A DNA stretch of 38,617 bases. It comes from an uncultured bacterium (GTDB lineage: Bacteria > Acidobacteriota > Thermoanaerobaculia > Multivoradales > J023). Below, piece after piece: positions 11,262 to 37,085 of this stretch. The stretch covers positions 1-38,617 of the forward strand of contig CALFAM010000024.1 of the NCBI GenBank assembly GCA_937948815.1, given 5' to 3'. Position numbers and translations under genes: made by a program. How positions within the stretch are numbered: the first letter of the stretch is position 1; every line of letters begins with the position of its first letter. The notes below the pieces were generated by a model. It saw only the letters and a list, made by a program, of their open reading frames with translations, ran no database searches and was not told the origin of the DNA.

Positions 11262-14200
11262 ATGCCACAACCGATAACGCGCCGGAGCTGGCGCCGCGCG
11301 CGGCAGATCTTCGAGGATGGGCTCGACCTGTCGATCGAAAAACGTGAATCGTTCATTCGTGATCGCTGTGCGATGGACGCTGCACAGGGCGACGTTGCTG
11401 TGCGAGACGCGGAAGCGCTGTATGCGCGGATTCGCGAGCTCTTTCGCTGTCACGACGAGGCGCAGGGATTCATTTCTTCTCCGGCGATCGTTCGCGAGCC
11501 TGTTCTCGGCGCGACCGGAGCACCCCTGAGCCCAGACGAGTCTTTGCTGGTTGGCACCACACTCGGTACCTACCGCTTGAACCGGGTTCTGGGCCAAGGT
11601 GGGATGGGTGTCGTCTTTCTTGCCGAACGATCGGACGAGTCCTATCGCAAGCGTGTTGCGATCAAGCTTTTGCGCGCAGGCGGTGTCCAGGGTGCGCTCG
11701 CCGAGCGCTTCCGCACCGAACGTCAGATCCTCGCCGATCTCGAGCATCCGAACATTGCCAAGCTTCTCGACGGTGGTACCGCCGCCGATGGGCGCCCCTA
11801 CTTGGTGATGGAGTACGTCGACGGAACGCCGATCGACACCTACTGCAACGATCAAGATCTCGGTGTTCGCGCACGCCTGGAGCTGTTCGTCAAGGTCGCG
11901 GGCGCCGTGGGCTATGCCCACCGTCAGTTGGTGGTGCACCGGGATCTCAAGCCGTCCAATATCTTGGTCGACTATCAGGGCGAGCCGAAGCTCTTGGACT
12001 TCGGCATTGCCAAGCTTCTCGACGGGGCGCCGGTCGCCGCAGTCGGTGCGCCGACCGAGCTCGGGCAGATGTTGATGACGCCGGAGTATGCCAGCCCGGA
12101 GCAGGTCAACGGTGAGCCGCTGAGCGTCGTCTCGGATGTCTATTCGCTCGGCGTGGTTCTCTATGAGCTGCTTGCCGGCCGCGGCCCGTATCGTCTCGAG
12201 CGTCACCGCCTGGAGGATGTGGTGCGGGCGGTTTGCCAGGCCGAGCCGCCGCGACCGTCGAGCGTTGCCATGATGCCGCAAAGCGGAGACGCGCGCGCGC
12301 CGGCGGTCGGGGTGCCGGGCGATCCCCGCCGCCTGCGGCGCCAGCTCCAAGGAGACCTCGACGCCATCGTGTTGCAGGCGCTGCGCAAGGAGCCGGAGGA
12401 GCGCTATGCGTCGGTCGACCGGCTGGTACTGGACATCGAGAATCAGCTCGCGGGTCGGCCGGTCTCGGCCCGCCGCGACACGCTCGCCTACCGATGCGCC
12501 AAGTTCGTTCGCCGGCACCGATTGGCGACCGCTCTGGGCGTGACGATCTTTCTCGCCATGTCGGGCCTGCTGTTGACCCTCGCCTTCCAGCGTCAGGCAC
12601 TGTTGCGCAAGCAAGAACAGCTCGTGAAGCAGCGCAATCGCGCTGAGTCCGTGTCGGGCTTCATCGTCAACGTATTCGCGATGCCGGATCCGACGCGGTC
12701 GCAGGGTGAGCAGGTCACGGCCCGTGATCTGCTCGATCGCGGTGTTCGACAGATCGAGACCAGTCTGGCGACCGAGCCGGGCGAGCGTGCGGACCTGTTG
12801 CTCACGATGGGGCGCTCCTACATGAACCTCGGGCTCCTCGAAGAAGCGGAGCCACTGCTCTCGCTGTCGATCGAGATGCTTCCGGCAGCGCCACGGGTCG
12901 ATGCCGAAGCCGGGGCGCGTGCCAAGGGCCTGCTTGCCCTCGCCAAGCTCCACTCGCTCGCCGGTCGTTATCAGCAGGGGCTCACAGCGGTCGAGGAGGC
13001 AGTGGGGCTGCTGCGGAGGCAGGTTCCGATCGACCGTCGACTGCTCGCGCTTGCCTTGGCTCGTTGGGGGCGAGGGTTGGAGCGAATGGGCGATCACGGC
13101 GCTTCCTCGGTGTGCTTCCGCGAAGCGCTGGCCCTGTCGCGGGCCGAAGGACACGGGCCGACGCTGGCAGCGGTGCTCGACCGATTCGCCATGCTCGAGA
13201 GCGAGCGCGCGGCGTTCGCACGTGCGGAAGCGATGTTTCGGGAGTCCATGGACCTGTGGGTCGAGCATCGCGGCACCGGCTCGCCGGAGGTGGCGCTGGC
13301 GCGCAACAACCTCGGCCTCGTCCTGACTCGGCGAGGGGTCTACGCGGAAGCCCAGGAGCAGTTGGAGGCTGCCGAAGCGGCCCAAGCGTCGCTCTACGAC
13401 GATCCGCACCCTCATCTGGCGACGACCCTCGGAAACCTCGGCTTGCTGTACACCGCCACAGGGCACTTCGACAAAGCCGAAGCGGCATTCGAGCGCGCGC
13501 TTTCCCTCGGCCGCGCGGCCTACCGAGGTGACCATCCGACGCTCGCAGGCATGCTCCACAATCAGGCGGATCTGGCGGCCGCGCGCGGCGACGATGCAAC
13601 CGCCGAGCGGCGCTACCGGCAGGCGCTCGAATCGCGGGTCGCGCTGCTCGGCGAAGGTCACCCGGATGCGGCGGCCACGCTCAACAACCTGGCCCGCATG
13701 CTGCGCACGCAAGGCCGCAACGACGAGGCGCGCGTCGCTTTCGAGAAGGCGCTTCGCTGGAGCATCGAGCAGTTGGGCGAGCAGCATCCGCAGGTTGCTG
13801 CCGTGCTCAACAATCTGGCCGAGATCGATCACGCCGAGGGGGCCCTGGAGCAAGCGGGCACGCGCTATCGGCGAGCCCTGGCGATCGGTCGGGCAACGCT
13901 CGGCCCCACGCATCCCGATCTGGCCGGACCGCTCCACAATCTGGCCGCCCTCGAGCAGAAGCTCGGGCACCTCGAAGCCGCTGAGCAACGGTACGAGGAA
14001 GCGCTGGCGGTGATGACGACGAGCCTCGGCGAGGACCACCTCAACGTGGCCATGACCCGCACCAGCCTTGCGTCGCTGAAGGAGAAGCGAGGCGATTCGG
14101 TGCGAGCCGAGACGCTGAGTCGACAAGGGCTGGCGCGCTTCACCGAGCTGCTGCCTGCCGACAATCCCTGGGCCACCTCGGCGCGGCGAATTCTCGCGCG

Positions 14201-14390
14201 TAGTCTCCAGGCACAGGGCCGTTTCGCGGATGCCGAAGCGGTGCTCGTGGACGCGCGGGATGCGCTGACCGCCGCGCGCGGCGCCGAGGCAGCCGGCACG
14301 GTCCAGATTGTCGAAGCTCTGCGCGCCCTGCGTGAAGCGCGCGTTGCGGCAGAGCAGCCCTCTAGCGATTCGGACGCCGAGCAACGATGA
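11262..14390 (+). CDS. Ser/Thr protein kinase with transmembrane segment and C-terminal TPR repeats
   Basis: A 1042-residue protein. An N-terminal helical region (1-95) of the type common in these kinases precedes a complete kinase domain: glycine loop LGQGGMGVVFLAE (110-122), VAIK lysine 135, HRDLKPSN with catalytic D228, DFG D247 and APE-like PEYASPEQ. A single transmembrane helix spans about 421-442, followed by TPR units from about 505 to 1010 with repeated N-N-L-A/G-x-L and A-E-x-x-Y/F helices. The kinase half should be cytoplasmic and the TPR half extracytoplasmic or membrane-proximal. Family knowledge suggests signalling through phosphorylation of cytoplasmic partners. The ECF sigma gene begins 36-84 bases downstream, so the two probably form one regulatory unit. 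ATG at 11262 has only a weak AGG. Confidence 0.93.
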   Translation: MPQPITRRSWRRARQIFEDGLDLSIEKRESFIRDRCAMDAAQGDVAVRDAEALYARIRELFRCHDEAQGFISSPAIVREPVLGATGAPLSPDESLLVGTTLGTYRLNRVLGQGGMGVVFLAERSDESYRKRVAIKLLRAGGVQGALAERFRTERQILADLEHPNIAKLLDGGTAADGRPYLVMEYVDGTPIDTYCNDQDLGVRARLELFVKVAGAVGYAHRQLVVHRDLKPSNILVDYQGEPKLLDFGIAKLLDGAPVAAVGAPTELGQMLMTPEYASPEQVNGEPLSVVSDVYSLGVVLYELLAGRGPYRLERHRLEDVVRAVCQAEPPRPSSVAMMPQSGDARAPAVGVPGDPRRLRRQLQGDLDAIVLQALRKEPEERYASVDRLVLDIENQLAGRPVSARRDTLAYRCAKFVRRHRLATALGVTIFLAMSGLLLTLAFQRQALLRKQEQLVKQRNRAESVSGFIVNVFAMPDPTRSQGEQVTARDLLDRGVRQIETSLATEPGERADLLLTMGRSYMNLGLLEEAEPLLSLSIEMLPAAPRVDAEAGARAKGLLALAKLHSLAGRYQQGLTAVEEAVGLLRRQVPIDRRLLALALARWGRGLERMGDHGASSVCFREALALSRAEGHGPTLAAVLDRFAMLESERAAFARAEAMFRESMDLWVEHRGTGSPEVALARNNLGLVLTRRGVYAEAQEQLEAAEAAQASLYDDPHPHLATTLGNLGLLYTATGHFDKAEAAFERALSLGRAAYRGDHPTLAGMLHNQADLAAARGDDATAERRYRQALESRVALLGEGHPDAAATLNNLARMLRTQGRNDEARVAFEKALRWSIEQLGEQHPQVAAVLNNLAEIDHAEGALEQAGTRYRRALAIGRATLGPTHPDLAGPLHNLAALEQKLGHLEAAEQRYEEALAVMTTSLGEDHLNVAMTRTSLASLKEKRGDSVRAETLSRQGLARFTELLPADNPWATSARRILARSLQAQGRFADAEAVLVDARDALTAARGAEAAGTVQIVEALRALREARVAAEQPSSDSDAEQR

Positions 14391-25900: not shown

Positions 25901-26443
25901 ATGGATGGAAGGAAACTATCGATCCAGTTGGAAGGTACCCAACTGGAGTTGATTGAGGGCGACATCACCGACCTCGTCGTCGAGGCGATCGTCAACGCTG
26001 CCAATGAAGATCTGCAGCTCGGCGAAGGTGTCGCGGGTGCGATCCGCGAGAAAGGCGGCCCGTCGATCCAGGAGGAGTGCGACCGCATCGGTCATACGGC
26101 GGTCGGCACCGCGGTCATCACCAACGGTGGCGATCTGGCGGCCAAGCATGTCTTGCATGCGGTTGGCCCACGATTCGGCGAAGGCGATGAGGACCGCAAG
26201 CTGGCCTCGGCGGTTCGCTCCGCACTGGCCCTATCGGATCGCCATGGCCTGCGTTCGATCGCATTTCCGGCCATCTCGACCGGCGTGTTCGGTTTTCCGA
26301 TGGATCGTTGCGCACGAATCATGCTTACCGAGATCTACCGCTACCTGCAGGGTGGCACCAAGATCGAGCGGGTGGTGATCTCTCTGGTCGACGACGCTTC
26401 GTTCGAGATCTTCAAGCGCGAGCTGCGGCGCGGATTCCGGTAG
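25901..26443 (+). CDS. Macrodomain protein (ADP-ribose/O-acetyl-ADP-ribose binding or deacetylase)
   Basis: A 180-residue single macrodomain. The ligand-binding elements are intact: GDITDLVVEAIVNAAN with the Asp and the NAAN loop, LGEGVAGAIREKGG as the first glycine loop, and AFPAISTGVFGFPMD as the second. Members of the YmdB/MacroD type hydrolyse O-acetyl-ADP-ribose or remove ADP-ribose from proteins or nucleic acids. AGGAGA ten bases before the ATG supports the start. It lies 176 bases upstream of the hydrolase-ligase cassette on the same strand; a functional link is possible but not shown. Confidence 0.92.
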   Translation: MDGRKLSIQLEGTQLELIEGDITDLVVEAIVNAANEDLQLGEGVAGAIREKGGPSIQEECDRIGHTAVGTAVITNGGDLAAKHVLHAVGPRFGEGDEDRKLASAVRSALALSDRHGLRSIAFPAISTGVFGFPMDRCARIMLTEIYRYLQGGTKIERVVISLVDDASFEIFKRELRRGFR

Positions 26444-26619: not shown

Positions 26620-27567
26620 ATGTCGACACGACAGGTCGTTCTTCTCGGGCCACAGCGGCTGGCGCCGACCCTCGATCGTGAAATCGAGAACCTCGCGATC
26701 GAGGGATCGATCGCGGCCATTACCGCTGGCTGGCAGGAGCGGGAGGCGGAAGACGACGAGCTGCGGGATCTGCTTGGTGGCGACGTCGTCAACCTCGATC
26801 TTCACCGCCGTGCTGACGCGGTCTTTGCCGAAGACAGCGAGCTCGCTGCTGCGCATCGCGATCGCCAGGACGAGCTGAAAGCCCTGCAGTCCTTCTATCG
26901 GTTTCGGCTCGATCCGGCCCTTGCGCCGGCTCGTGCCCTGCTCGAACGCCGTCGCGGCCCGACCCGCTGGCTGGCGGCCGAGCGTCGAGCCGCGGTGTCG
27001 GCTGTGCGCGCCCTCGACCGTCAGCACCTCTTGCGTGTGGCCGGTATTCATCGTCGGTTCGAAGCACTCTGGCATCCCTGGGAACGCCCGGCGGTGAAGC
27101 GCCATCGGAACGAGATCGGTGAGATCTTGTCGGGCGCCAAGGCGCTCGCCATCGCCGGCGGACACGTTGCCGTACTGCTCAACCGGCTTCGACTCTTCGG
27201 CGTGGCCGAGTTGCTCGGCAACCAGCCCATTCTGGCCTGGTCTGCGGGCGCCATGGCGCTTACCGACCGCGTGGTGCTCTTCCACGACACGCCACCTCAG
27301 GGCGCCGGCAATGCCGAAGTGCTCGAGAACGGCCTCGGTCTCGTACCGGGATTGGTCGTGCTTCCTCACGCCCGGCGGCGCTTGAAGCTCGACAACCCGC
27401 ATCGGGTCGCCCTCTTCTCGCGTCGCTTTCGGCCCGCCACGTGCGTCCCGCTCGACGAGGGCACGCGGCTGGTGATCGACGGGGAGGCAATGCGTGCCGA
27501 GCCGGACACACGCATGCTGCGGCGGGACGGCGCCGTGGTGCCGCTCGACGGCAAGGGTAGGAAATGA
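26620..27567 (+). CDS. Peptidase S51/cyanophycinase-like serine hydrolase
   Basis: A 315-residue protein with the C-terminal half of the type 1 glutamine-amidotransferase-like fold used by peptidase E and cyanophycinase. Visible elements are the AIAGGHVAVLLN glycine turn (177-188), the nucleophile elbow LAWSAGAMAL with Ser208, the GLGLVPG strand, a catalytic-type His250 in LPHARRRL and the LDEGTRLVIDG strand (278-288). S51 enzymes hydrolyse Asp-containing dipeptides or the branched Asp-Arg polymer cyanophycin. Residues about 65-170 form a long, Arg-rich helical insertion that I do not know from either family, so the substrate is probably different. It overlaps the esterase gene by four bases (ATGA) and heads the cassette. 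Confidence 0.7.
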   Translation: MSTRQVVLLGPQRLAPTLDREIENLAIEGSIAAITAGWQEREAEDDELRDLLGGDVVNLDLHRRADAVFAEDSELAAAHRDRQDELKALQSFYRFRLDPALAPARALLERRRGPTRWLAAERRAAVSAVRALDRQHLLRVAGIHRRFEALWHPWERPAVKRHRNEIGEILSGAKALAIAGGHVAVLLNRLRLFGVAELLGNQPILAWSAGAMALTDRVVLFHDTPPQGAGNAEVLENGLGLVPGLVVLPHARRRLKLDNPHRVALFSRRFRPATCVPLDEGTRLVIDGEAMRAEPDTRMLRRDGAVVPLDGKGRK

Positions 27568-28769
27568 CGTCGTCACCGAACACGCACGAGTCGAGGGCGC
27601 CGGAATCGCAAGGCTTCGCGACTGGATCGGCTTCCCGCCTGGCGATTCAGGATTTGATCGCGAGCGGGACACCATCTTCGGAAGCAATCGATGCTTTCCT
27701 CGAAGGGAAGCGGTTTCCCTTGGTCGAAGGGTCGTCGGTGACCTTTGTCTACCGGGGCGAGGTCGACAGCGTGTCGCTCCAACATTTCATCTACGGTCTG
27801 CCGACCTCTCAGCCGTTCGCGCGTGTCGGGAATAGCGATCTCTGGTATCTCACCCTGGAGCTGCCGCCCGAGTCGCGCATGCAGTACAAGCTGAACGTCG
27901 AACACGAGGGGCAAGGGCGCTGGATTCTCGATCCACAAAACCCCGAGCGCGCGTTCGATCCGTACGGTGCCAACTCGGTCTGTCACACCGACGGCGCCGA
28001 GCGGCCAGCCTGGACCTATCCCGATCCCGAAGCGCGGGCCGGCACGATCGATTCGATACGCGTTGCGAGCGATGCGTTTGGCGGTGTCCGCGAGGTGCCG
28101 GTCTATCTGCCCGCGCGCTTCCGCGCCAGCCGCCGCTACCCGCTCCTGGTGGTCCACGACGGCAGCGACTACCGCCGATACTCGGACCTTCAGACGGTCC
28201 TCGATAACCTCATCCATCGGCTGGAAGTGGCGCCGATGATTGTCGCACTGACCGATGCCGGGAACCGGCTCGAAGAGTACGCGGACCATCCGCCCCATGC
28301 TCGCTTCGTCACCGAGGAGCTCTTGCCCGCGCTCGACCAGAGCTTCCCGCTGATTCCCGGTCGCGGCAGCCGCGGCTTGATGGGAGCGAGCTTCGGCGGC
28401 GTGGCGGCACTGTCTTCCGCATGGCGGTACCAGGGCGTTTGGGGACGCCTGCTGCTGCAGAGCGGTTCGTTCGCGTTCACCGACATTGGCGAGCACGATC
28501 GGGGGCCGCTGTTCGATCCCGTGGTGCGATTCGTCAACGCCCTGCGCGACGAACCGGGCCGGCCCGCCGACAAGGTATTCGTTTCCTGCGGCACCTACGA
28601 ACGGCTGATCTACGAGAACCGATCGCTGGTGCCCCGTTTGCAAGCTGCTGGCATGGACGTGCGCTTCTTGGAGGCCCGAGATGGCCATAGCTGGGCCAAC
28701 TGGCGTGATCAGTTGCGGGTTGGCCTCTCGTGGCTGTTTCCCGGACCGCTCTGGATGGTGTATGAATAG
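27564..28769 (+). CDS. Enterochelin-esterase-like alpha/beta hydrolase
   Basis: A 401-residue protein with two parts. Residues about 40-140 form an Ig-like/E-set domain (strands around SSVTFVYRG and DLWYLTLELPPESRMQYKL) of the kind that precedes the catalytic domain in Fes/IroD enzymes. Residues 160-395 are an esterase D-like hydrolase: YPLLVVHDGSDY oxyanion region, nucleophile Ser276 in MGASFGG, and His375 in DGHSWANWRDQL. The acid residue expected in the CGT segment appears as Glu346. Fes-type enzymes hydrolyse ester bonds of catecholate siderophores, but no signal peptide or siderophore gene is present, so the substrate may be a product of the adjacent ligase. ATGA overlap with the upstream gene indicates coupling. 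Confidence 0.85.
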   Translation: MTSSPNTHESRAPESQGFATGSASRLAIQDLIASGTPSSEAIDAFLEGKRFPLVEGSSVTFVYRGEVDSVSLQHFIYGLPTSQPFARVGNSDLWYLTLELPPESRMQYKLNVEHEGQGRWILDPQNPERAFDPYGANSVCHTDGAERPAWTYPDPEARAGTIDSIRVASDAFGGVREVPVYLPARFRASRRYPLLVVHDGSDYRRYSDLQTVLDNLIHRLEVAPMIVALTDAGNRLEEYADHPPHARFVTEELLPALDQSFPLIPGRGSRGLMGASFGGVAALSSAWRYQGVWGRLLLQSGSFAFTDIGEHDRGPLFDPVVRFVNALRDEPGRPADKVFVSCGTYERLIYENRSLVPRLQAAGMDVRFLEARDGHSWANWRDQLRVGLSWLFPGPLWMVYE

Positions 28770-28831
28770 GCAGCCCATCGGGGGCACCGTCCACAGTCAA
28801 CGAGCGGTCCTCGAGGCCCCAAGGAGCTACT

Positions 28832-30085
28832 GTGCCCAATGTGACCCGCAAGATCGGACTCTCCCTCGGCGCGGACCTGTGCTGGCCCATTTGCTTCGAG
28901 GAGATCGTTCAGCGCCTCGATCTCGCGATCCCCTTCGAAGGGGACCGGGTTGGCGTCGAAGTGGAGCGGCTGACGATCGAGCCATTCGATCTCGAGCAGC
29001 CCTGCCGCTATGACGTGGTGCTCGATCGCCTGACCCACTGGTACAACACCAGTCGGGAATGGATCAAAAAAGCGGTCATTCTCGACGGTTTGTACGTGCT
29101 CAACAATCCCTGGACCGTGCAGTCCATGGAAAAGCAGACGTCGTATTGCGCGATGATGCGTCTCGGGCTGCCGGTCCCCAAGACCTGGATGGTGCCGCCC
29201 AAGGAGTACCCGCCTCACGCGGATCTGGCGACCACGCTCGAGCGCTACGCCAAGCTCTTCGACCTCGGCTCGATCGGTGAACGTCTCGGCTTCCCCTTGT
29301 TCATGAAGCCCTACGATGGCGGTGCCTGGCGCGGCGTAAGCTGCATCGAAGACGCCGACCAGCTGCGCAAGGCGTACGAGGAGAGTGGCACCAACGTGAT
29401 GCACCTGCAGCGCGCGGTCGAAGATTTCGATCTCTTCGTGCGCTCGATCGGCATCGGCCCCCAGGTCAACTCGGTACGCTACAACCCGACCGCGCCGCTC
29501 CATGAGCGGTACGAGGTCGCGTTCAACTTTCTGTCCGTCGACGAGCTGTCGCTGCTCCGCGACATGACCCTGACCATCAACAGCTTCTTCGGGTGGGACT
29601 TCAATTCGTGTGAGACCTTGCGCAAAGACGGTGTCTTCCACCCGATCGACTTTGCCAATGCCTGTCCGGATTCTCAGGTGACATCATTGCACTTCCACTT
29701 TCCCTGGCTGATCGGCGCCAAGGTTCGTTGGTCGATTTTCTGTGCTGTCACCGGGAAGAAGATGCGCCAGAACGTCGACTGGACGCCCTACTACGCGATT
29801 GCCGAGCAAGAGCTCCCCTATCGCGAGCGTCTGCGCGCGTATGCCGCGATCGCGGACGAGCGGATGGAGACGGAGCGTTTCCGTGCGTTCTGCGCCGAGC
29901 ATCTCGCGCATCTCGACGAGGTGATGGTCGAGTTTTTCGGGACCGACACCGCGAAGAACGCCGTGCGGAAAAAGGTCGAGGCCTTGTTTCCCAAGCACGA
30001 GATCGAGAAATTCACCGAGCACTTCTGGGGCCTGATCCAGTTCTGGCGCAAGACCGAGTCGGATCGCCTTTCCAAGGCGGGCTGA
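28832..30085 (+). CDS. ATP-grasp ligase-like protein
   Basis: A 417-residue protein. The GTG at 28832 follows AAGGAG by five bases. The ATP-grasp core shows a phosphate/adenine-binding Lys159 in GFPLFMKPYDGGAWRGV and metal-binding residues D273 and N276 in PIDFANACPDSQ. ATP-grasp enzymes activate a carboxylate as acyl phosphate and join it to an amine, thiol or other nucleophile. The N-terminal 100 residues form the usual first alpha/beta lobe, and the last 100 residues are helical with many charged residues. Together with the two preceding hydrolase genes it suggests synthesis and processing of an amide- or ester-linked product. The substrates are unknown. It is convergent with the membrane protein downstream (27-base gap). 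Confidence 0.82.
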   Translation: MPNVTRKIGLSLGADLCWPICFEEIVQRLDLAIPFEGDRVGVEVERLTIEPFDLEQPCRYDVVLDRLTHWYNTSREWIKKAVILDGLYVLNNPWTVQSMEKQTSYCAMMRLGLPVPKTWMVPPKEYPPHADLATTLERYAKLFDLGSIGERLGFPLFMKPYDGGAWRGVSCIEDADQLRKAYEESGTNVMHLQRAVEDFDLFVRSIGIGPQVNSVRYNPTAPLHERYEVAFNFLSVDELSLLRDMTLTINSFFGWDFNSCETLRKDGVFHPIDFANACPDSQVTSLHFHFPWLIGAKVRWSIFCAVTGKKMRQNVDWTPYYAIAEQELPYRERLRAYAAIADERMETERFRAFCAEHLAHLDEVMVEFFGTDTAKNAVRKKVEALFPKHEIEKFTEHFWGLIQFWRKTESDRLSKAG

Positions 30086-30112: not shown

Positions 30113-31120
30113 CTACTGCTTGACTTGCAGCTCGCCCATGCTGCCGCTGAGGCGCAGGGTGAGCGTCGGATGGTCAGGGTTCTCGGTGGTTTCGTCGACC
30201 CGGAGCTGACGCTCACCCATTGCGACGCTGGCGCGATCGATGTCGATGTTCACGCCCGTCTCGGGCAACCAGAGGCGCGCTTCGCCCATGCTGAAGCTGA
30301 CTTCCACGTCAGCGTCGTTGTGCCAGGTGCCGCTGAGGTCGACCAGGACCTCGCCCATGCCGTGATCCACCTGCACGGACTGCGGACTGGCGTCACCGAG
30401 ACCCCGTAGCTCGACGCTGCCCATCGAGCTGTCGACGACGAAGCGAGACATGGGCACGCGGAGGGGCTCGCGGAACTCGAGAAAGTGCTCACCCATGTCG
30501 AGGTCGAGGTCGACGTCGCGCAACCAGAGTCCGCCGAGGTCGATCTCGGACTGGCCAGTACCGATGGTGCCGACGATGTCGAGCGGCTGGTCCCGTGGCA
30601 CCGTGATGGTCACCCGGTTGCGGCCCTGGCTGCCGCCGCGCAGCAGCAGGCCAAACCAGCCCCCTTTGCTGCCGAAGCCGATCTTGTACTTCCAGGTACC
30701 GTCGCCACGCTCATCGTAAGACTCGGAAAGCTCGAAGGCGCTGGTGTCGTAGTCGGCCTCGACGCGAATCGGCTCGCCGGCGGGGCCCGGTTGAATGATG
30801 AACTCGCCCATGTTGAGGTCGAGCTCGAGCACGCCAGCCCGGACTTCGCTCGGGTCGAAGTCGGCCGGTAGCGGAGCAATGGGGATGGCGGGCAGCTCAC
30901 CGCTGCCAGGCGGTGCGTCGGGAAGCTCGGGGAGGTTGGGCAAGGGTGGCGCAGCCGGCAGCTCGCGCTCGACCGCGCGCTGCTCTGGATTCGGATCGCC
31001 CCAGTCCGTGGTGAGATGAATGGCGCCGAAGAGGAGCCCGACACCGACGAGGGCCGCAATCACCAGCAAGCATCCGGTGCATCCGACCTTGAAGCATCCT
31101 TTTCCTCTGCCCTCGCTCAT
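30113..31120 (-). CDS. Membrane-anchored beta-repeat protein with seven Met-Gly motifs
   Basis: A 335-residue protein; the ATG at 31120 follows AGGAGG by four bases. A cytoplasmic CxxxxCxxC cluster (9, 14, 17) precedes a transmembrane helix (about 17-36), a Pro-rich linker (55-90), and an extracytoplasmic beta domain. In that domain the motif M-G-(E/S) recurs at residues 104, 209, 233, 255, 278, 301 and 328, each followed by a short hydrophobic strand. The layout recalls DUF4097/LiaF-like beta-solenoid domains, but the strict Met-Gly placement is distinctive. No catalytic residues are evident. It is the last gene of a minus-strand run; its ATG overlaps the stop of a possible small upstream gene. 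Confidence 0.75.
   Translation of the reverse strand: MSEGRGKGCFKVGCTGCLLVIAALVGVGLLFGAIHLTTDWGDPNPEQRAVERELPAAPPLPNLPELPDAPPGSGELPAIPIAPLPADFDPSEVRAGVLELDLNMGEFIIQPGPAGEPIRVEADYDTSAFELSESYDERGDGTWKYKIGFGSKGGWFGLLLRGGSQGRNRVTITVPRDQPLDIVGTIGTGQSEIDLGGLWLRDVDLDLDMGEHFLEFREPLRVPMSRFVVDSSMGSVELRGLGDASPQSVQVDHGMGEVLVDLSGTWHNDADVEVSFSMGEARLWLPETGVNIDIDRASVAMGERQLRVDETTENPDHPTLTLRLSGSMGELQVKQ

Positions 31121-34073: not shown

Positions 34074-34079
<6 letters not shown>
34036..34079. repeat. Three copies of GTGCTCATCG at exact 17-base spacing
   Basis: GTGCTCATCG is found at 34036-34045, 34053-34062 and 34070-34079. On the minus strand (CGATGAGCAC) the first copy contains the UvrA stop, the middle copy is intergenic and the third contains the SGNH start codon. 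The seven bases between copies are not conserved. It could be a protein-binding array, a remnant of start-region duplication, or a set of alternative start codons in three frames. Confidence 0.85.

Positions 34080-37085
<3,006 letters not shown>

Follow-up and report, generated by a model that had tools for sequence, protein, structure and literature searches.

A conserved S51-like, esterase and ATP-grasp cassette and its candidate place in a multi-ligase gene set linked to glycogen genes

What does a compact cassette of one predicted ligase and two hydrolase-like proteins do in an uncultured member of the Acidobacteriota, and does it work on its own? The cassette lies in contig CALFAM010000024.1 of assembly GCA_937948815.1, and the window analyzed here is this whole contig of 38,617 nucleotides (C24 in our numbering); the source assembly holds 6.5 Mb in 371 contigs and is 82% complete. 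On the forward strand the cassette encodes an S51-fold protein of 315 amino acids (26620-27567; from the open reading frame (ORF) list, Pfam, AlphaFold and Foldseek), a Fes-like CE1-type esterase of 401 amino acids that we call EST (27564-28769; ORF list and Pfam PF00756), and a RimK/LysX-like ATP-grasp ligase of 417 amino acids with a GTG start that we call GRASP (28832-30085; ORF list and structure). An earlier sequence-only reading had described these genes as one bond maker and two bond breakers serving a small metabolite, a peptide tag or a storage compound. Our comparison supports a real, conserved three-gene unit, and we give about an even chance to the explanation in which this unit belongs, as a module, to a conserved multi-ligase system working with an alpha-glucan (glycogen) store.

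Conservation of the cassette and the wider gene set

The layout proposed from the sequence alone proved exact to the base for all three ORFs, their coordinates and strand, as well as for the ATGA overlap between the S51 stop and the EST start (27564-27567, forward strand) and the 62-base gap between EST and GRASP (28770-28831), which carries an AAGGAG ribosome-binding site (28821-28826, forward strand) 5 bases ahead of the GTG. At least 558 stretches of the genome collection encode a relative of GRASP, and the best 80 loci were analyzed. The order S51>EST>GRASP and its strand are kept in 50 of the 67 loci that have at least 3.5 kb of upstream sequence. Hosts fall in the Acidobacteriota, Myxococcota, Planctomycetota and Eisenbacteria, with one bin labeled Proteobacteria, and include the cultured species Nannocystis exedens, N. 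pusilla and Paraliomyxa miuraensis; the nearest named relatives of the window GRASP are metagenome-assembled genomes of Acidobacteriota. In a tree of GRASP sequences, grouping by phylum is far above that of shuffles, yet the clades are not clean. The sequence-only reading had suggested looking for the same gene order elsewhere and had allowed that the three genes might be neighbors in this genome only; instead, the set is conserved across phyla.

Within the phylum, long-form GRASP was found in 10 of 247 sampled genomes, and the cassette-type S51 gene in the same ten. The probability of this co-occurrence by chance is ∼5e-18, a value that assumes independent genomes and so overstates the case. 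Cross-phylum conservation together with the exact phyletic co-occurrence leaves chance neighborhood virtually ruled out.

The genes that recur around the cassette were found by an all-against-all ORF comparison in the 80 loci and named by Pfam. They comprise AG2a, AG2b and AG2c, three ATP-grasps of ∼405 amino acids of the L-amino-acid-ligase type, a second PF00756 esterase (EST2) that lies directly 3′ of GRASP in 54 of 77 loci, and GlgA, GlgC, GlgX and MalQ. The Myxococcota and a few others have additional GCS2-CBS ligase and FGase-like hydrolase neighbors. In a typical myxobacterial locus (L060, L065, L105) the genes run FGase-GlgA-AG2a-S51-EST-GRASP-EST2-GCS2, and AG2b and AG2c follow farther along. 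The typical acidobacterial pattern (L038, L044 and also L039, which is binned as Phycisphaerales) begins with a divergent AG2a and continues with S51-EST-GRASP-EST2; next come GlgA and GlgC, encoded on the opposite strand, and then AG2c and AG2b. Since the arrangements differ between groups, they argue against one frozen neighborhood. GlgA lies at most ∼10 kb from GRASP in 30 of the 80 loci, upstream on the plus strand in Myxococcota and downstream on the minus strand in Acidobacteriota, and the AG2 genes adjoin GlgA, or GlgC and then GlgA, in eight of the ten genomes that carry the set. True AG2a was found in nine of the ten GRASP genomes and in no other of the 247; the tenth assembly is in 1130 contigs. 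As a separate observation, the GCS2-type ligase that follows EST2 in myxobacterial clusters is fused to two CBS domains (L096:11996-14074 and similar cases).

In the genome that contains the window, AG2a is located beside GlgX on contig C333, and contig C21 carries AG2b-AG2c-GlgC-GlgA-MalQ plus an ORF resembling alpha-glucan phosphorylase (called GlgP on its sequence). The GlgA copy beside these AG2 genes is the only one in the genome. A more distant relative of EST2 (33-37% identity) is on contig C133. The cassette is not self-contained, as it belongs with the three AG2 ATP-grasps and the EST2-type esterase, all sited elsewhere in the genome. Besides the S51-like protein, the full set counts four ATP-grasp ligases and two esterases; it spans phyla and is linked to glycogen synthase, and very probably it is coupled to alpha-glucan metabolism. 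The AG2 genes lie inside or beside the bacterial glg operon (glgC, glgA, glgX, malQ, glgP) in this genome and its relatives. We know of no described glg operon with ATP-grasp ligases. ATP-grasp goes unmentioned in the part covered of a review on the alpha-glucan enzymes of prokaryotes (2024; PMC11046441).

Predicted properties of the encoded proteins

In profile scans the GRASP sequence fell below every curated cut-off, including that of the RimK subfamily TIGR00768 (20 versus 143 bits). Its AlphaFold model (pLDDT 90.5) matched RimK, ArgX, LysX and Ddl in Foldseek; the closest structures were RimK/ArgX/LysX, with 4iwx, 3vpc and 5zk6 as the best matches. The residues K101, K159, E261, D273 and N276 are invariant in all 61 homologues compared. 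The modeled fold and these signature residues clearly point to a ligase-type member of the ATP-grasp superfamily, as the sequence-only reading had it. GRASP has in common with RimK and LysX-ArgX the ATP-grasp core, the conserved Lys and the acidic/Asn residues, but core identity is only ∼16 to 20%, an extra C-terminal helical domain of ∼130 residues is present (about residues 290-416), and no LysW or RpsF partner is known for GRASP.

Shorter relatives of GRASP (∼310 amino acids, loci L141-L148) are common in the phylum and mark a separate ligase neighborhood, with GCS2 in six of the eight loci, a circularly permuted ATP-grasp in three and an EST2-like esterase in two. No glycogen gene was found near these eight loci, and we did not count the short forms as cassette members on account of this different context. 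Conserved near short-form GRASP and GCS2 is also a protein of ∼400 amino acids without a clear Pfam family (a faint ATPgrasp_ST hint), with copies at L142:2890-4077 on the minus strand and L143:9563-10762 on the plus strand.

Among the AG2 ligases, the profile of AG2a is closest to the L-amino acid ligase 4wd3 (E 1.7e-23). Known enzymes of this kind (4wd3, BacD, BL00235) are near AG2a in length (406 versus 413 amino acids); AG2a-c differ from them in being three paralogues together beside glycogen genes, with no antibiotic cluster seen. Catalytic residues are invariant or nearly so in GRASP, AG2a, EST and EST2, and the signature residues of AG2b and AG2c were judged intact by invariant columns only. 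All of the set's own enzymes stay below the curated NCBIfam cut-offs for functional families.

EST matches PF00756 with 77 bits against a cut-off of 22 (E 2.6e-21), and a profile of 53 EST homologues aligns with E. coli-type Fes (2b20) at E 5.3e-23. S276, H375, E346 and D373 are invariant in the 53 homologues, which bears out the Fes-like assignment made earlier and provides the Ser, His and acidic residues expected from Fes and CE1 esterases such as the ferulic acid esterases 6rzn and 8bbp. The two-domain layout is likewise that of Fes: an Enterochelin_N-type N-terminal domain (amino acids 50-150; 27711-28013, forward strand; PF11806 in 48 of 48 homologues) precedes the alpha/beta-hydrolase. 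However, EST is linked to glycogen genes and not to siderophore genes. It missed the NCBIfam Fes equivalog cut-off (93 versus 222 bits), and siderophore families were not seen among the shared neighbors examined around cassette loci; on these grounds we rejected a siderophore role drawn from the likeness to Fes.

The S51-like protein matches PF03575 (31.8 versus 23.9 bits, above the curated cut-off), and its AlphaFold model has a mean pLDDT of 93.6. Foldseek returned 6nqc, 7c9b, 3en0 and 7uqv with probability 1.0, and the confident matches were peptidase E, cyanophycinase and pseudo-CphB only. Judged from the model, the PepE/cyanophycinase fold is certain. Structure modeling of the ATP-grasp and S51 proteins, as the sequence-only reading had suggested, hence gave a RimK/LysX-like and a PepE/cyanophycinase-like fold, respectively. 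Most S51-like members also share the AWSAGAM nucleophile-elbow motif of this family, which in the window protein contains S208 (codon at 27241-27243, forward strand, placed by sequence and alignment). They depart from it in a long helical insertion (about residues 61-172), in an invariant FHDxPP (H222, within FHDxPPxG, is found in all 52 homologues) and in a nucleophile and His that are not strictly conserved. Two other S51-family genes are present outside the cassette (C184:4873-5451 and C362:6458-7015).

Weighing the explanations

If the cassette works with the glycogen store, the ATP-grasps would spend ATP on amide or ester bonds that link amino acids or other carboxylates, and the product of the ligases would be a small acyl or peptide unit. 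This unit could be ester-linked to the alpha-glucan or made and stored alongside it. EST and EST2 would cleave the ester, and the S51-like protein, perhaps inactive in one branch of the myxobacteria, may bind or trim the end of the peptide. We consider it probable that the chemistry of the set is amide/ester ligation plus ester cleavage, and unlikely that the product is attached directly to the glucan. Doubtful to a similar degree is the broader proposal that glycogen carries ester-linked amino acids or peptides in many Acidobacteriota, Myxococcota and Planctomycetota, with ATP-grasp ligases building and attaching the group and two dedicated esterases removing it. If true, this would be a previously undescribed covalent modification of the polysaccharide that bacteria store. 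The glg genes of glycogen metabolism are considered well mapped, and the multi-ligase set points to a missing layer, either chemical modification of the glycogen store or a nitrogen-containing partner compound. The cultured carriers open the system to experiment.

One further hint for a link to the glucan comes from the N-terminal domain of EST, which has weak, sub-threshold similarity to CBM_20 in 31 and to CBM_48 in 21 of 48 homologues and whose best solved match is a glucoamylase starch-binding domain (E 0.0026). We rejected starch binding as an assignment and kept it as a hint, the HMM matches being suggestive and the profile-profile comparison negative.

Several results weigh against the coupling to a glycogen store or against parts of the scheme. 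The window EST does not reach the cut-off of a starch-binding profile, its matches being sub-threshold, and hhalign of the N-terminal domain against CBM48 (six GlgX CBM48 domains) gave E 0.17, with 0.14 for the negative control. No glycogen gene lies near the cassette in the window itself, nor within about 9 to 10 kb at 25 of 40 well-flanked loci, Nannocystis included. As many as 170 of the 247 genomes sampled from the phylum encode GlgA, and with this base rate adjacency alone is informative and presence is not. The type of ligase alone does not indicate what is joined. Lastly, among 52 homologues of the S51-like protein the nucleophile position holds Ser in 45, Ala in 4 and Gly in 3; at the site that matches the catalytic His, as assigned by motif spacing (H250 in the window protein), 31 carry His and 17 carry Asp. 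Asp at 250, partly together with Ala or Gly at 208, is found in a branch that is mainly myxobacterial. The Ser-His center proposed earlier is therefore present in the window protein (S208 and H250) and not across the family. Since both positions vary among homologues, the S51-like protein need not be a hydrolase; from these alignments hydrolysis is not assured, or another His may be used, and a role as a breaker is doubtful. With Ala or Gly at the nucleophile in 7 of the 52 and no His at the expected site in 21, the description of one maker and two breakers is not supported in that form.

The loci without glycogen genes nearby also fit a different explanation, namely that the product is a small, free peptide or a solute resembling one, serving as nitrogen reserve or protectant, and that co-location with glycogen genes reflects a shared role in storage or dormancy with nothing attached to the glucan. 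The resemblance of AG2a-c to dipeptide-forming L-amino acid ligases and of GRASP to RimK/LysX agrees with this, as do the short GRASP relatives that sit with GCS2 and a circularly permuted ATP-grasp away from glycogen genes. Two esterases with intact catalytic residues, however, fit a purely amide-linked peptide poorly, and the AG2 genes adjoin GlgA, GlgC or GlgX in most genomes and in several arrangements; we regard the free solute as possible but rather unlikely. The esterases are equally left unexplained if GRASP, like RimK, attaches amino acids to a protein target, which might be a glycogen enzyme, and the hydrolases take them off again. Although the closest folds, RimK and LysX/ArgX, do act on the ends of proteins or carrier proteins, a conserved small protein that might serve as carrier or acceptor was not seen next to the cassette, the gaps of −4 and 62 bases within the window cassette are too small for one, and such tagging seems to us improbable.

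The same gaps, together with the 27 bases to the next gene, leave no room in the window cassette for the precursor gene of a graspetide-like ribosomally synthesized and post-translationally modified peptide (RiPP), in which GRASP would be a macrocyclase. An ATP-grasp beside a Fes-type esterase would suit such a pathway, or a siderophore pathway with EST as Fes, and this genome does encode nonribosomal peptide synthetase (NRPS) condensation domains elsewhere. Yet four of the ten carrier genomes showed no NRPS condensation domain, exporter or uptake genes did not stand out among the shared neighbors, and GRASP keeps 61 to 75% identity between phyla, unlike a diversifying RiPP ligase. We hold either pathway to be very improbable, and the same applies to a cyanophycin-like polymer for which the S51-like protein would be the cyanophycinase. 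Its fold, nearest to PepE, cyanophycinase and pseudo-CphB, and the storage context speak for the latter; the unconserved nucleophile and His speak against it, as does the cyanophycin synthetase family TIGR02068, which was over its cut-off in none of the ten genomes with the set (this one, 82% complete, and nine relatives), in line with the absence noted from the window. Of the three kinds of product first proposed, metabolite, peptide tag or storage compound, the storage direction proved useful, and the product may be any of them.

Neighborhoods that combine several ligases with hydrolases have a precedent: Iyer and colleagues reportedly surveyed uncharacterized amidoligase neighborhoods with ATP-grasp, GCS2 and peptidase genes in 2009, and GCS2 and FGase members occur here in the Myxococcota. 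The present set appears to differ from the neighborhoods reported there in its coupling to glycogen synthase and in the S51-EST-GRASP core. A search of 5.4 million open-access papers found no account of a ligase-esterase-glycogen combination. Every protein of the set comes from a known superfamily; the multi-ligase neighborhood appears to be uncharacterized, and the glycogen link appears to be new.

Flanking genes and other features

A macro-domain gene of the ADP-ribose-binding type, identified by Pfam, lies directly 5′ of the cassette (25901-26443, forward strand). In a congeneric genome (L036, L120) this gene abuts the start of S51, elsewhere the neighborhood lacks it, and we rejected it as a core member because it adjoins the cassette in the same genus only. 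On the 3′ side, the next gene (30113-31120) is on the opposite strand and lies 27 bases beyond the cassette. At five other loci (L035, L046, L054, L061 and L062; four acidobacterial and one in a bin labeled only "bacterium"), the gene upstream of S51, divergent from the cassette, encodes an Rrf2-type regulator that possibly controls it. In two loci a Reg_prop/Y_Y_Y/HATPase sensor kinase of ∼1025 amino acids is encoded between EST and GRASP on the plus strand (L099:6875-9952 and L112:6864-9938).

The NRPS condensation domains of the assembly are many and lie on C18, C27, C126, C204 and other contigs, in frames of up to 12,036 amino acids. Further genes of the window include a UvrA-type protein of 1003 amino acids, an ABC ATPase with a UvrA DNA-binding domain (34074-37085, minus strand), and a Ser/Thr protein kinase of 1042 amino acids with a long TPR array (11262-14390, plus strand).

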